A stretch of 35,542 bases of DNA, taken from positions 1 through 35,542 of the forward strand of contig CAJTIT010000024.1 of assembly GCA_910576345.1 (NCBI GenBank), read 5' to 3'. Shown here piece after piece: positions 9,116 through 13,613 of the stretch. The DNA comes from Erysipelotrichales bacterium (GTDB taxonomy: Bacteria; Bacillota_I; Bacilli_A; Erysipelotrichales; Erysipelotrichaceae). The notes beneath the pieces were generated by a model. That model did no database searches. It saw only the letters and a program-made list of their open reading frames with translations, and was not told the origin of the DNA. Each line of letters opens with the position of its first letter. Positions within the stretch are counted from its first letter, which is position 1. The translations under genes were made by a program, and so were the position numbers.

Positions 9116-9151
9116 ATTAGATAAGAAATGGAAAATAAAGGAGATGTGCAA

Positions 9152-9763
9152 ATGGCAAGACGAGTAAAAGAATTTGTAGATCGATACCCAATCGTTTCAT
9201 TGCAGGATTTAAAGCGGCCTATGGTATTTGTGGTTGATATGAACAATGGTTTCCTGAAACAGGGTGCCTTACATGATAGGGGAATTATGGAATGTGTGAA
9301 ACCGATTGAAACGCTGCTTCAACAACAAATACCCTCTATTTTCTTTACCGATGCACATCATGTTCAAGCGATGGAATTTGACAGTTATCCGGCACACTGC
9401 GTGGAAGGAACATTAGAGTGTGAAATCATCGATGAATTGTATCCCTATGTGAAGAGTAAAATAGAAAAACACAGCACCAATGCTTTTGTCAGTGAAGGAT
9501 TTGAAAAATTCTTGATCGAGGATGTATATAAGTATGATGATTATATCATCACAGGATGTTGTAGCGACATTTGCATCTTGCAATTTGCAATGACACTCAA
9601 GGCGTATTTTAATGAACTGGAAGATAAAAACAAACGCATATTCGTGCCTATCAACTGTATTGATACCTTTCACAGCGATGATCACGACGCAGGTTACTGG
9701 AATGAATTTGCGATTTCATATATGAAGGCAAATGGTATTCATGTTGTTTCTTGTGTGAAATAG
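9152..9763 (+). CDS. pncA: Nicotinamidase (isochorismatase-fold hydrolase)
   Basis: The enzyme hydrolyses nicotinamide to nicotinate and ammonia in the cytoplasm, feeding the Preiss-Handler NAD pathway. The 203 residues show the cysteine hydrolase triad: Asp29 (FVVDMNN), Lys106 (IEKHSTNAF) and Cys141 (GCCSDICI). Asp67/His69/His70 (TDAHH) fit the metal site. Length is close to the family norm. The start at 9152 has AAAGGAG eight bases upstream; the in-frame ATG at 9128 has none. The neighbour pncB uses the product, which fixes the substrate better than sequence alone would for this broad family. A second Cys (136 or 137) beside the catalytic one is a minor oddity. Confidence 0.9.
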   Translation: MARRVKEFVDRYPIVSLQDLKRPMVFVVDMNNGFLKQGALHDRGIMECVKPIETLLQQQIPSIFFTDAHHVQAMEFDSYPAHCVEGTLECEIIDELYPYVKSKIEKHSTNAFVSEGFEKFLIEDVYKYDDYIITGCCSDICILQFAMTLKAYFNELEDKNKRIFVPINCIDTFHSDDHDAGYWNEFAISYMKANGIHVVSCVK

Positions 9764-9779: not shown

Positions 9780-11261
9780 ATGAAAAATTATGATGAACAG
9801 TTTGATTTTCGTGATGAGCGAAACCTGAGCATGTGCATGGATTTTTATGAATTGACCATGAGTCAGTGTTATTTCAATTCAAAGGACAGAGATAAGATTG
9901 TTTCTTTTGATTTGTTTTATCGCAGGAATCCAGATCACGGAGGTTATACGGTATTTGCCGGATTGGAAGAAATCATCGGCTTTATTCAAAACCTACATTT
10001 CCGTGATGAAGATATTGCGTATTTAAGAAGTCTGGGTACATTCAGCGAATCGTTTTTAGATTATTTGCGCCATTTTATCTTTACCGGCGATATTTATGCC
10101 ATTAAGGAAGGGACGCCGGTATTTCCATATGAACCGCTAATCAGAGTGCGTGCGAAACAGATCGAAGCGCAAATCTTGGAAACGGCACTGTTACTGATTA
10201 TCAATCATCAAACGCTGATTGCCACCAAGGCAAAGCGCATCGTGAAAGCGGCACAAGGTAGGGCAGTTATGGAATTCGGTGCAAGAAGGGCTCACAATTT
10301 TGATGCGGCCAATTATGGCGCAAGAGCTGCTTATATCGGTGGTGTTGCAGGTACGGCCACAACCTATGCCGGACAGAAATTCCATATTCCGGTGATGGGC
10401 ACAATGGCACATTCGTTTATTCAATCGTTTGATAGTGAATATGATGCATTTTTGGCGTATGCGAAAACATATCCAAATGCTTGTACCGTATTATTAGATA
10501 CCTATGATACATTGCGCAGTGGTCTTCCCAATGCGATTCGCATTGCAAAAGAATATCTGGAGCCAAATGGGCATCATCTGGCAGGTGTCCGCATTGATTC
10601 CGGAGACATGGCGTATCTTTCCAAACAAATACGCAAGATATTGGATGAGAATGATATGGAATCTACCAATATCGTGGTTTCCAATTCTTTAGATGAATAT
10701 TTGATTACATCCTTGATTCAACAAGGCGCAAAAATTAACAGTATGGGAGTTGGGGAGAATCTAGTCTGCAGTAAAAGCGCTCCGGTATTTGGCGGCGTTT
10801 ATAAACTGTCCTCTGTTTTTGAAAATGGAAAAATGATTCCCAAAATTAAAATTAGTGAAAATATAGAAAAAGTGACCAATCCGGGATTTAAAAATTTGTA
10901 TCGTTTGTATGACAAATCAAGCAATAAGGCTGTGGCAGATTTAATGACGCTTTATGATGAGTTAATTGATCCAAATCAAGATCTGACGATCTATCATCAA
11001 ATGAATTCATGGAAAAATAAGACGCTGAGCGGTGGAACTTATGAAATGAAGGATTTGTTGGAACCTATTTTTGTGGGCGGGAAGTTGGTGTATGATGTGC
11101 CGACGTTGGAACAAATTCGTGCATACAGTGAAATGGAGTTTTCAAAAATCTGGGATGAAGTATTGCGTTTTGAATACCCACAGGTGTATTATGTGGATTT
11201 AAGCAAACAACTGTTGGATCTGAAATTGTCCATGTTGGAGGATGTAAAACATGAAGCATAA
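9780..11261 (+). CDS. pncB: Nicotinate phosphoribosyltransferase
   Basis: The enzyme joins nicotinate to PRPP with ATP hydrolysis to give nicotinate mononucleotide, the committed step of nicotinate salvage. The 493 residues are the usual length for the Gram-positive form. Landmarks are DFYELTMSQCYF at the start, the GARRAHNFDAANYGARAAYI segment with the active-site His, GTMAHSF, and RIDSGDM for phosphate binding. It lies 16 bases after pncA and overlaps the next gene by 11 bases, so the four genes from 9152 to 12650 form one operon. Confidence 0.95.
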   Translation: MKNYDEQFDFRDERNLSMCMDFYELTMSQCYFNSKDRDKIVSFDLFYRRNPDHGGYTVFAGLEEIIGFIQNLHFRDEDIAYLRSLGTFSESFLDYLRHFIFTGDIYAIKEGTPVFPYEPLIRVRAKQIEAQILETALLLIINHQTLIATKAKRIVKAAQGRAVMEFGARRAHNFDAANYGARAAYIGGVAGTATTYAGQKFHIPVMGTMAHSFIQSFDSEYDAFLAYAKTYPNACTVLLDTYDTLRSGLPNAIRIAKEYLEPNGHHLAGVRIDSGDMAYLSKQIRKILDENDMESTNIVVSNSLDEYLITSLIQQGAKINSMGVGENLVCSKSAPVFGGVYKLSSVFENGKMIPKIKISENIEKVTNPGFKNLYRLYDKSSNKAVADLMTLYDELIDPNQDLTIYHQMNSWKNKTLSGGTYEMKDLLEPIFVGGKLVYDVPTLEQIRAYSEMEFSKIWDEVLRFEYPQVYYVDLSKQLLDLKLSMLEDVKHEA

Positions 11262-11904
11262 TCAAAAGTTGAAGCTACTGTTACGTGCGGAGATCTTCAT
11301 TTATGCGATTTCTGTGGTGTATGGTTTTTATCATTCATGGATGATGGAAGATCATCAAGCGTTGGGCATGTGTGTCGTGGCTTGTTTAACGCCATGGATT
11401 GTACCGTTAATTTTTCACTTGGCACATTTTAAACGTGTGGTTGAAATTGATATCTGCAACATTGCTTTTGTTTATTTTGCCTCATTGATTGGTTCTGTTT
11501 TTCATGGTTATTCTGTATTTGGATTTGATAAAGTCGTTCATTTTTGCAGCGGTCTGCTTTTAACGACATGTTCTATTTTGTTGTTTATGATCATTAAGAA
11601 AACGGCGCATATACAGAATAAGGAAGATTATCATTTATTCTTGATTTTTATCAATGCGATGAATTTGGCGATAGCGGTGTGTTGGGAATTTTATGAATAT
11701 GCGATGCTGATTTTTTTCAATAACGATTGTATCAATCATTATACACAAGGTGTTCATGATTCGATTACGGATATGCTTTGTGCCTTTGTCGGCGGTATAT
11801 TGATAACACTGCTTGTGATGCGATCTTACCGTAAAAAAACACCTGGTTTTATCACGTCTTTATGTGAAAAATTCTATCGTCTGAATATTGAAAAGCATTC
11901 ATAA
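11251..11904 (+). CDS. Polytopic membrane protein (YjdF/DUF2238-like)
   Basis: The 217 residues contain about six membrane segments (near 10-27, 40-56, 66-84, 95-113, 129-150 and 178-196). The motifs KVVHFCSG, CWEFYEYA and HDSITDMLCAFVGG resemble the DUF2238/YjdF family, in which conserved His, Glu and Asp lie near the membrane face. Function of that family is unknown. Its ATG lies inside the end of pncB (11-base overlap), showing tight coupling to nicotinate salvage. A role in uptake of a pyridine precursor would fit the context but is only inference; the family assignment is from pattern and should be treated as likely, not certain. Confidence 0.72.
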   Translation: MKHNQKLKLLLRAEIFIYAISVVYGFYHSWMMEDHQALGMCVVACLTPWIVPLIFHLAHFKRVVEIDICNIAFVYFASLIGSVFHGYSVFGFDKVVHFCSGLLLTTCSILLFMIIKKTAHIQNKEDYHLFLIFINAMNLAIAVCWEFYEYAMLIFFNNDCINHYTQGVHDSITDMLCAFVGGILITLLVMRSYRKKTPGFITSLCEKFYRLNIEKHS

Positions 11905-11915
11905 AAGGTGCGCAC

Positions 11916-12650
11916 ATGAAGAAAAAAGCGACGCTGCTCATCCAACATTTGGAATCCATATATCCCATGGTGTTTCCTTTTGATCAGGTGATTCATGATG
12001 GATATATAGCCATACATCATGATAAAATTCTATCACTTGGTCTTGGGGAAGGAAAGGAATGGATTGAAAAGGATACAAGAATTTTGGAGGGCAGAGGAAA
12101 CATTGCGTTCCCGGGATTTATTGATGTGGATGTTTGTTTTTCTGATCATATGGAAGGACGTGTAAATGATTGGATCAAATTATATGAAACAGGCAATCGA
12201 TTATTGAAAAATGGCACTATGATAGTGGGTACAGAACCTATAGACGAAACAAAACGTAGTTGTTTGCGAGTGGAACCGGTAGTGAAAACAAAACATCGTT
12301 ATCCAATCGTTCACCCGCTTCATCCTGCGGAAATCACGAAAAGCTATCGCCGCTTTTGTATCAGCAGCGCTCATCTCACGGTGGATTGTTTGGATCAGCT
12401 GCAGTGTGCCAAACTTTATGCTTTGTGGCATCCGGAATTAAGCGAAACACAGATTTTGGCAGCGTGTTGCGTATATCCTGCGCGCGCTTTGCGTCTTAGA
12501 CAGGTTGGGCAGCTTCGACCATCTTGGAAAGCGAACGTATTGATGAGCGAAGGTCGTTCATTTTCTGATGTGTTAAATCGCTGGCATGGATCCAATATAC
12601 TTCAAGTAATCAAGAACGGTGTGCGTATTTATCCATATTTATTGATTTAA
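11916..12650 (+). CDS. Truncated amidohydrolase-like protein lacking the metal site
   Basis: The ends match metal-dependent amidohydrolases: an N-terminal beta part (DGYIAIHHDKILSLGLG, then GNIAFPGFIDVDVC) and a C-terminal part (ILAACCVYPARALRLRQVGQLRPSWKANVLM). The family usually has 380-450 residues and an HxH after PGFID; here there are 244 residues and DVDVC replaces the histidine pair. Most of the TIM barrel, about 150 residues, is absent. The frame is nonetheless intact, has an AAAGGTG ribosome binding site and starts 11 bases after the membrane protein gene, so it appears maintained. Hydrolase activity is unlikely; it may be a pseudoenzyme with a regulatory or scaffold role, or an early pseudogene still in frame. 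Confidence 0.75.
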   Translation: MKKKATLLIQHLESIYPMVFPFDQVIHDGYIAIHHDKILSLGLGEGKEWIEKDTRILEGRGNIAFPGFIDVDVCFSDHMEGRVNDWIKLYETGNRLLKNGTMIVGTEPIDETKRSCLRVEPVVKTKHRYPIVHPLHPAEITKSYRRFCISSAHLTVDCLDQLQCAKLYALWHPELSETQILAACCVYPARALRLRQVGQLRPSWKANVLMSEGRSFSDVLNRWHGSNILQVIKNGVRIYPYLLI

Positions 12651-12691: not shown

Positions 12692-12711
12692 GTACTATGG
12701 AGGTGGAATTC

Positions 12712-13179
12712 ATGGAAATTATCACACATGAAAATGACTGTGAAAAGCGATTGCTGACAAGCGATTATTGTCCCAATCCTGCGATGAAGAATTGTTTTCA
12801 GACACAGTTTTTCACTTGTACATTACGGAAAATCGAATTGTGCGGACAGACATTGAATCAGTTTCATGTAGATGAAGGTGCTCAGTTCTTATTAATGCAT
12901 TTGACTGTTCATAACATGACCAATGAAATATTAAGCATGTTCAAGGAAGATTTCTATATTAAATTTGATGGTGAGGGACCATTTGAACCTGAAGAGGAGT
13001 TTGGCGTCACGCACCAGTTTCCTGACACATACGCTTTGAAACCAAACGAGGAAATGAAGGGCGTTCTTGTGTTTTTGATTGCACAGGACACCAAAAAGAT
13101 CGTATTTAGTTATACGGAATACTTTGATGATGAAAGTGAAGGGAAAACATATCGGTTAAAGTATGATTTGAAATCATGA
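12712..13179 (+). CDS. DUF4352-like beta-sandwich protein, no signal peptide
   Basis: The 155 residues include a segment typical of DUF4352-style immunoglobulin-like domains: FLLMHLTVHNMTNEILSM, then FYIKFDG, LKPNEEMKGVLVF and DTKKIVFSY. In most relatives this domain follows a lipoprotein signal; here there is none, so the protein should be cytoplasmic, which is odd. The start at 12712 has GGAGGTG five to six bases upstream; the ATG at 12697 lies before that site and is rejected. It has its own -10 element and a strong terminator, so it is a single-gene unit. Function unknown. Confidence 0.7.
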   Translation: MEIITHENDCEKRLLTSDYCPNPAMKNCFQTQFFTCTLRKIELCGQTLNQFHVDEGAQFLLMHLTVHNMTNEILSMFKEDFYIKFDGEGPFEPEEEFGVTHQFPDTYALKPNEEMKGVLVFLIAQDTKKIVFSYTEYFDDESEGKTYRLKYDLKS

Positions 13180-13336: not shown

Positions 13337-13613
13337 CATAAAAGATAGCTGAGAAAAGATAAGTAAACAGAGAACGGTTTTGTAGAGAGTCTTCGCAAGG
13401 TGAAAGAAGATAAAGTAAGTATCTGTTGAACATGGTCTTGGAGCTGCCGCATTCGAGGGATTTCACTAAGGTTGCGGCGTGTGCGCACGTTATAGCGCTA
13501 GGGTATCATCCGTAATTTGTACGGCCGTACCTGAAGAGGTGATTTCTGTGAGGAAATCATAAATTAAGGTGGTAACACGAGTCTTCGTCCTTATGGCGAA
13601 GGCTCTTTTTTTG
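13337..13613 (+). ncRNA. T-box leader with terminator, probably methionine-specific
   Basis: The leader has the T-box hallmarks: AGAGAG of stem I (13384-13389), a GAAC followed by a candidate specifier ATG (13432-13434), the T-box sequence AATTAAGGTGGTAACACG (13562-13579) and a terminator, GAGTCTTCG (13579-13587) pairing with CGAAGGCTC (13597-13605) before seven T residues. Intervening stems include GCCGC/GCGGC and the palindrome GTACGGCCGTAC. Uncharged tRNA binding would form the antiterminator and allow metNIQ expression. The Met specifier is inferred from position and from the genes controlled; CAT (His) in the shifted register cannot be excluded by eye. Confidence 0.93.

Follow-up and report, generated by a model that had tools for sequence, protein, structure and literature searches.

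An open reading frame at positions 11916-12650 of the plus strand of the window, by which we denote the whole stretch of 35,542 nucleotides analyzed here, encodes a short, metal-less, HutI-like protein of 244 aa. It belongs to a family-wide short form whose members constitute one clade, lack the metal ligands and are under purifying selection. Judged from sequence, the short form is a pseudoenzyme of the amidohydrolase superfamily, i.e. a protein homologous to enzymes that has lost the active site and is maintained by purifying selection. We favor, with about even confidence, the interpretation that it is a trimmed, metal-free relative of imidazolonepropionase (HutI) that selection might have maintained as a folded protein without catalytic activity, in a binding or adaptor role.

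The open reading frame and its surroundings

The frame begins with an ATG 11 bp beyond the stop of a DUF2238 gene, and a ribosome-binding-site-like AAAGGTG (11904-11910, plus strand) can be read 5 nt ahead of this ATG and shares the final base of the preceding stop codon. The open frame, ribosome-binding site and tight spacing described in the first-pass annotation are hence all present. Upstream on the same strand lie genes for an isochorismatase-fold protein (9128-9763; Pfam Isochorismatase, 1.1e-16), named nicotinamidase pncA from its context, for the nicotinate phosphoribosyltransferase PncB (9780-11261; NCBIfam NF006695, 2e-200) and for the DUF2238-like "predicted membrane protein" (11251-11904; Pfam, 27.2 bits against a cut-off of 26.4). 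The downstream neighbor, also on the plus strand, codes for a DUF4352 protein (12697-13179; Pfam). It is followed by a T-box leader (13342-13595, plus strand; Rfam RF00230, 105.2 bits against a gathering threshold of 93) ahead of metNIQ, which is probably methionine-specific, judged by gene context; as they possess a leader of their own, the methionine transporter genes appear to be under separate control. A terminator-like hairpin is found at 13579-13605, in the T-box region before metNIQ. A promoter scan was uninformative (7 promoter-like sites versus 8.4 expected).

Phyletic distribution, size and selection

A profile of 18 members (A1), searched against 272 genomes of the family, recovers a full-length form of about 240 aa in 30 of them, the window's included (E <= 1.8e-70). 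The next match, at E 2.3e-27, is one further piece in G034 that is cut by an assembly gap, and then, at 5e-15, come ordinary full-length amidohydrolases. In the window genome the single match to the protein is the frame itself, with no second copy; together with the 30 full-length copies and the gap in E-values this indicates that the reading frame is not a chance occurrence. Across the order, 31 of 315 genomes, distributed over 17 genera, show a match when the G034 piece is counted, and all of them belong to one family; the remaining genomes of these 315 yielded no short form, and among 395 genomes sampled from the class the matches were confined to the same family. A name scan, which used a single pattern that catches only part of the short-form family, returned 16 named loci, and the named carriers are Erysipelotrichaceae, among them Longicatena caecimuris, Faecalicoccus pleomorphus, Faecalitalea cylindroides, Holdemanella biformis, Catenisphaera adipataccumulans and Absicoccus porci. 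Mapped onto a 45-row tree of pncB, the presence or absence of the short form requires at least 7 changes, implying that the gene is dispensable in places and that its loss or transfer is common.

With start-codon extensions trimmed, the 30 members are 239-254 aa long, and internal stops are absent from all 30. Computed by the Nei-Gojobori method with a script of our own, the dN/dS ratio of 13 pairs of relatives lies at 0.026-0.187, the window protein itself having no close enough pair, and it is 0.045-0.187 in the 8 pairs with dS < 1, of which 6 are non-independent pairs among four genomes of the window's genus. This calculation, which the first-pass annotation had proposed as a check, points to purifying selection and, along with the 30 full-length members and the absent metal site, upholds its description of a conserved, apparently non-catalytic relative of the amidohydrolases.

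An alternative explanation, that the short form is a decaying remnant of hutI, draws on the fast divergence of the protein, which is 41% identical between the window and G002 while the neighboring pncB, DUF4352 and metN products are 85%, 72% and 77% identical, and on the absence of a full-length hutI from all 31 genomes with a short form. Nevertheless, ratios of 0.03-0.19, intact frames throughout and nearly equal lengths lead us to reject decay, and the non-overlap with hutI is not significant: the two genes occur in 31 and 17 of the 272 genomes, with an overlap of 0 where about 2 would be expected (chance 0.12), so that mutual exclusion was discarded as well. The first-pass annotation held that full-length, metal-competent orthologues at the same place in close relatives would mark a decaying gene. 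Of the 99 genomes in which pncB is matched and a full-length short form is absent, we therefore took the pncB locus of 20, mostly those with the most similar pncB. Neither tblastn with 18 short forms (E 0.01) nor a profile search of the open reading frames uncovered a full-length version in these 20 loci. On this evidence the remnant explanation is extremely improbable.

Loss of the metal site and shortening of the barrel

The N-terminal half of the β-sandwich and the first barrel strand (residues 1-72; 11916-12131, plus strand) are the best conserved part of the protein and contain the invariant Y16, H35, T54 and P66. Codons 72-74 (12129-12137), at the position of the HxH motif of HutI, here read Asp-Val-Cys. 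They are followed by a barrel remnant (residues 73-147; 12132-12356) consisting of a helix, strand β-2 and a further short strand, which is the least conserved part, by the β-8/α-8 part (residues 148-192; 12357-12491), in which the metal Asp position 152 is occupied by Ala, and by the C-terminal half of the sandwich (residues 193-244; 12492-12647) with the invariant G235 and P240, all on the plus strand. What remains, according to model and alignment, is the sandwich, β-1, one helix, β-2, a further short strand and β-8/α-8. The observation that both flanking parts of an amidohydrolase are kept was correct, with residues 1-72 and about 150-244 matching amidohydrolases; the loss of barrel residues is equally real, though its size, put at about 150 residues in the first-pass annotation, is nearer 170 when four HutI of 406-421 aa from the same bacterial family serve as the reference.

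The HxH motif, the β-5 His, the β-6 His and the β-8 Asp are what we take to be the metal ligands of HutI. In an alignment to the four HutI of the same family, the first His of the HxH is kept in 5 of the 30 short forms and the second in none, so that no member retains the full motif, as had been noted for the window protein with its Asp and Cys at residues 72 and 74. The β-5 His with an accompanying Glu and the β-6 His are deleted in 30/30, and the β-8 Asp is kept in 0/30. An HxH occurs elsewhere in 6 of the 30 short forms, at differing places.

Mean conservation is 0.607 for residues 1-62, 0.659 for 63-72, 0.405 for 73-147, 0.503 for 148-192 and 0.556 for 193-244. As the sandwich and β-1 are conserved above the rest of the barrel, the surviving constraint appears to act mainly there. 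Given that the metal site is lost and that selection persists in related genera, the short form is probably a binding protein rather than an enzyme, as far as sequences can tell. One might instead propose a new enzyme with another active site, perhaps around His35 and Thr54 of the sandwich. These two residues are indeed invariant in 30/30 and are not kept in the four aligned HutI, and all 30 members have an acidic residue (Asp or Glu) at position 51 and at position 70. However, among the listed invariant residues, which include Y16, H35, T54, P66, G100, G235 and P240, Cys and Lys are absent and His35 is the sole His, while D70 falls within a PGFID stretch common to ordinary HutI. We regard such an enzyme as rather improbable.

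The same conservation profile bears on the possibility of a ligand-binding sensor, in which the open half-barrel would hold an imidazole- or pyridine-type compound and signal to a partner by conformational change. Many members of the second clade have a HutI-like loop after β-8 (SCGFGKPNS against SCDYNPGSS), the ligands of HutI and the nicotinate genes would both be small heterocycles, and pncA and pncB adjoin the gene in the window. Against this, conservation is lowest in what was once the barrel, and two positions examined as what are presumably substrate-loop residues of HutI are hardly retained (the Arg in 2/30, the Tyr in 0/30), which lends no support to the role in binding a pyridine-type ligand suggested in the first-pass annotation. 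Furthermore, Pfam at E 0.01 finds amidohydrolase families and no output domain in 18 members, and several genomes have no pncB nearby. A sensor of this kind is therefore unlikely.

Relationship to HutI and other amidohydrolases

Among the best 25 of 66 NCBIfam families, HutI (TIGR01224) gives the lowest E-value (1e-13) and is matched by all 18 A1 members, with the 8-oxoguanine deaminase and cytosine deaminase models matched by 17 of the 18. The similarity is remote, as the window protein scores 28.4 bits against TIGR01224, far below the equivalog cut-off of 298.15 bits, and 21 bits against Pfam Amidohydro_1, below the gathering threshold of 25. At E <= 0.01, Amidohydro_1 (PF01979) is matched by 18/18 A1 members (best 2.7e-11) and Amidohydro_3 (PF07969) by 16/18. 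The best PDB match of the short-form profile is Bacillus subtilis HutI (7.6e-12). With a profile of all 30 members, scores range from 56.1 to 89.0 bits for the HutI of the family and reach 58.7 bits for other amidohydrolases; the latter value, for an adenine deaminase, exceeds those of the two lowest HutI (56.1 and 56.2), so that the score ranges touch.

In a tree of 40 rows, comprising 20 of the 30 short forms, the short forms constitute one clade with a support of 99/93. The fork neighboring this clade has a support of 58/52, and the attachment to HutI was not recovered. Topologies that join the short form with HutI (p-AU 0.34) or with type-A HutI (p-AU 0.21) were not rejected, and trees with and without the long rows did not settle the descent. 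With HutI the best profile match and the branch point left unsettled by the trees, descent of the short form from HutI is likely.

Predicted structure

The first-pass annotation had also called for structure prediction, and this yielded a confident fold. The best of five AlphaFold2 models of the window protein has a pLDDT of 88 and a pTM of 0.89, and a model of a second-clade member (G027) reaches a pLDDT of 91.6. As a caveat, AlphaFold2, on which this fold rests, was trained on solved structures such as HutI. The predicted fold is the sandwich plus barrel of the amidohydrolase superfamily, with the barrel partial: three clear barrel strands are seen in the window model. In VIA-align comparisons the best match of the latter is HutI (2g3f; Z 24.0, 238/244 residues, rmsd 2.3 A); adenosine deaminases, with Z 23.4 and 23.1, lie within 1 Z unit of HutI and are to be considered tied with it. 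Foldseek places the amidohydrolase 3hpa just above HutI by E-value and gives HutI the higher TM-score. For the G027 model the best PDB match is aligned over 235 residues with Z 24.0, and the top five matches are all imidazolonepropionases (Z 24.0-22.0), the next being a triazine hydrolase (Z 21.9).

Gene neighborhoods with the short form

Around the short form, in the window as well as in 29 other loci, the neighbors identified are genes for a divergent α/β-hydrolase (Pfam Hydrolase_4 in the 6 checked), DUF4352 and DUF2238 proteins, and methyltransferases, along with met and pnc genes. The most constant of them is the hydrolase gene, which stands head to head with the short form, on its pncB side, in 27 of the 29 other loci. 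The two exceptions are G057 and G056, the contig of the latter ending about 600 bp away. A DUF4352 relative occurs 3' of the short form in 14/29 other loci, at distances of 45-137 bp, and pncB is located within about 5.1 kb upstream in 20/29. A contig end is close to the short form in G006, G020 and G260; in G027 and G044 pncB is about 46-48 kb off, in G239 it is on another contig, and in G234 and G237 it was not found at E 1e-120.

The first-pass annotation asked whether homologues also follow pncB: an upstream pncB within this distance is indeed common, but the gene that adjoins on that side is mostly the hydrolase. Likewise, the operon with pncA and pncB proposed there fits the spacing in the window and is not the general arrangement in the 29 other loci. 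The functional link to these two genes is further undermined by the head-to-head pair of hydrolase and short form being kept in the five genomes without a nearby pncB (G027, G044, G239, G234 and G237). The connection to nicotinate salvage is weak and mostly a matter of shared gene order.

Genome-wide, a hydrolase match at E 1e-6 is absent from the window genome (G000, 99.9% complete), G057 (97%) and G056 (81%), whereas the hydrolase is found at the locus in another five genomes from the window's genus (G002-G006). The simplest reading is that the window's line lost the hydrolase, a loss that accounts for the short form now being so close behind the pnc genes; with G057 also lacking the hydrolase, the tight spacing in the window looks derived.

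These patterns raise the possibility that the short form is a specific partner of the divergent hydrolase, e.g. an activator, inhibitor or chaperone. The head-to-head arrangement persists where pncB is elsewhere or not found, and both genes are missing from G103, which shares its genus with G057. On the other hand, the window genome, G057 and G056 possess the short form with no hydrolase match, and the hydrolase often occurs alone. Specifically, of the 20 pncB loci taken from genomes with no full-length short form, 15 (L083-L097) have usable neighbors, L082 being cut by a contig end and L098-L101 having no conserved neighbors, and in 14 of these 15 the hydrolase is present and the short form missing, the hydrolase then often having DUF4352, metN or another gene as its immediate neighbor. 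An exclusive partnership of this type is quite unlikely.

Some loci show further rearrangements. In G231 the hydrolase gene beside the short form (L105:7897-8566) is split into two overlapping frames and may be broken. In G049 a 1075-aa surface-type protein with BspA leucine-rich repeats, a CAP domain and Listeria-Bacteroides repeats is encoded between DUF2238 and the hydrolase (L027:9896-13123). Genes for JetA, JetB and JetC, presumably of a Wadjet-type defense system, take the place of the hydrolase/short-form segment in G103 (L083:5637-10907) and lie beside a ferritin-like gene.

Neighborhoods of hutI

We took 17 regions around supposed hutI genes (L132-L148), of which 15 hold a hutI more than 40% identical to one of two queries, corresponding to 15 of the 17 genomes of the family with hutI. 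There are two hutI types in this bacterial family. None of the 15 loci has pncB, the hydrolase or DUF4352 within the stretch taken, and in all of those seen hutI is overlapped by an FTCD_C (formiminotransferase-cyclodeaminase) gene or has one within about 1 kb. An FTCD_C gene also fills the place between the hydrolase and DUF4352 in G030 (L084:6901-7524), a genome that has no short form. It is 35-41% identical to the FTCD_C that overlaps hutI in G025, G264, G250, G284 and G281, and 26-30% identical to that of ten other hut loci. This hints that a hutI-FTCD_C pair once occupied the site of the short form, with different lineages keeping different halves; alternatively, the G030 gene may have arrived by independent insertion. 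None of the loci taken has hutI and FTCD_C together at this site.

A proposed origin and function

Under our preferred interpretation, a relative of HutI would have shed about 170 barrel residues and the metal site before the present members diverged, and selection would then have kept the short form as a folded, non-catalytic protein. By analogy with other inactive relatives, we infer that it acts as a binding or adaptor protein through the β-sandwich, its best conserved part. In most species the product of the divergent α/β-hydrolase gene would be the first candidate partner; it cannot be the sole one, as no copy of the hydrolase is detectable in the window genome and in G057, both of which retain the short form. 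More tentatively, the short form might represent a free-standing half-barrel version of the amidohydrolases, stable and under selection, in which the sandwich and three or four adjoining barrel strands have acquired a new use as a binding subunit in many genera of one family; this is possible although we lean against it. If true, this would show which part of the amidohydrolase fold can stand alone, and the neglected β-sandwich would gain a function. The results also carry a warning for annotation, as the label "imidazolonepropionase" would be wrong for short forms.

Comparison with known systems

Of the known proteins, HutI (TIGR01224; PDB 2bb0, 2g3f) provides the best profile and VIA-align match over nearly the whole short protein, and the order of the sandwich, β-1 to β-2 and β-8/α-8 is the same in both. 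Unlike HutI, which has about 410 aa and a complete eight-stranded barrel, the short form is about 170 residues shorter and has no metal site, and those of its neighbors that were identified are not hut genes. Similarly, it differs from typical Amidohydro_1 and Amidohydro_3 proteins (PF01979, PF07969) in missing the barrel core along with the metal site.

The degree of trimming is unusual for a pseudoenzyme of the amidohydrolase superfamily, and we know of no other member that is cut down so far and yet folded and under selection. A shortened imidazolonepropionase was not reported in the literature we searched, which included PMC4581275 and PMC13081902 and covered few subscription journals. The idea of an inactive member is in itself not new. 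Inactive dihydroorotases, for example, are near full length and have a known partner, unlike the short form. According to PMC4581275, inactive members of the superfamily are already known, and an inactive dihydroorotase is required for the assembly of the Pseudomonas aspartate transcarbamoylase. In the dihydroorotases of aspartate transcarbamoylase assembly, i.e. that of Pseudomonas and the corresponding domain of yeast URA2, an inactive relative of the superfamily has been kept for a non-catalytic role, and by analogy the short form might have been retained in a comparable capacity.
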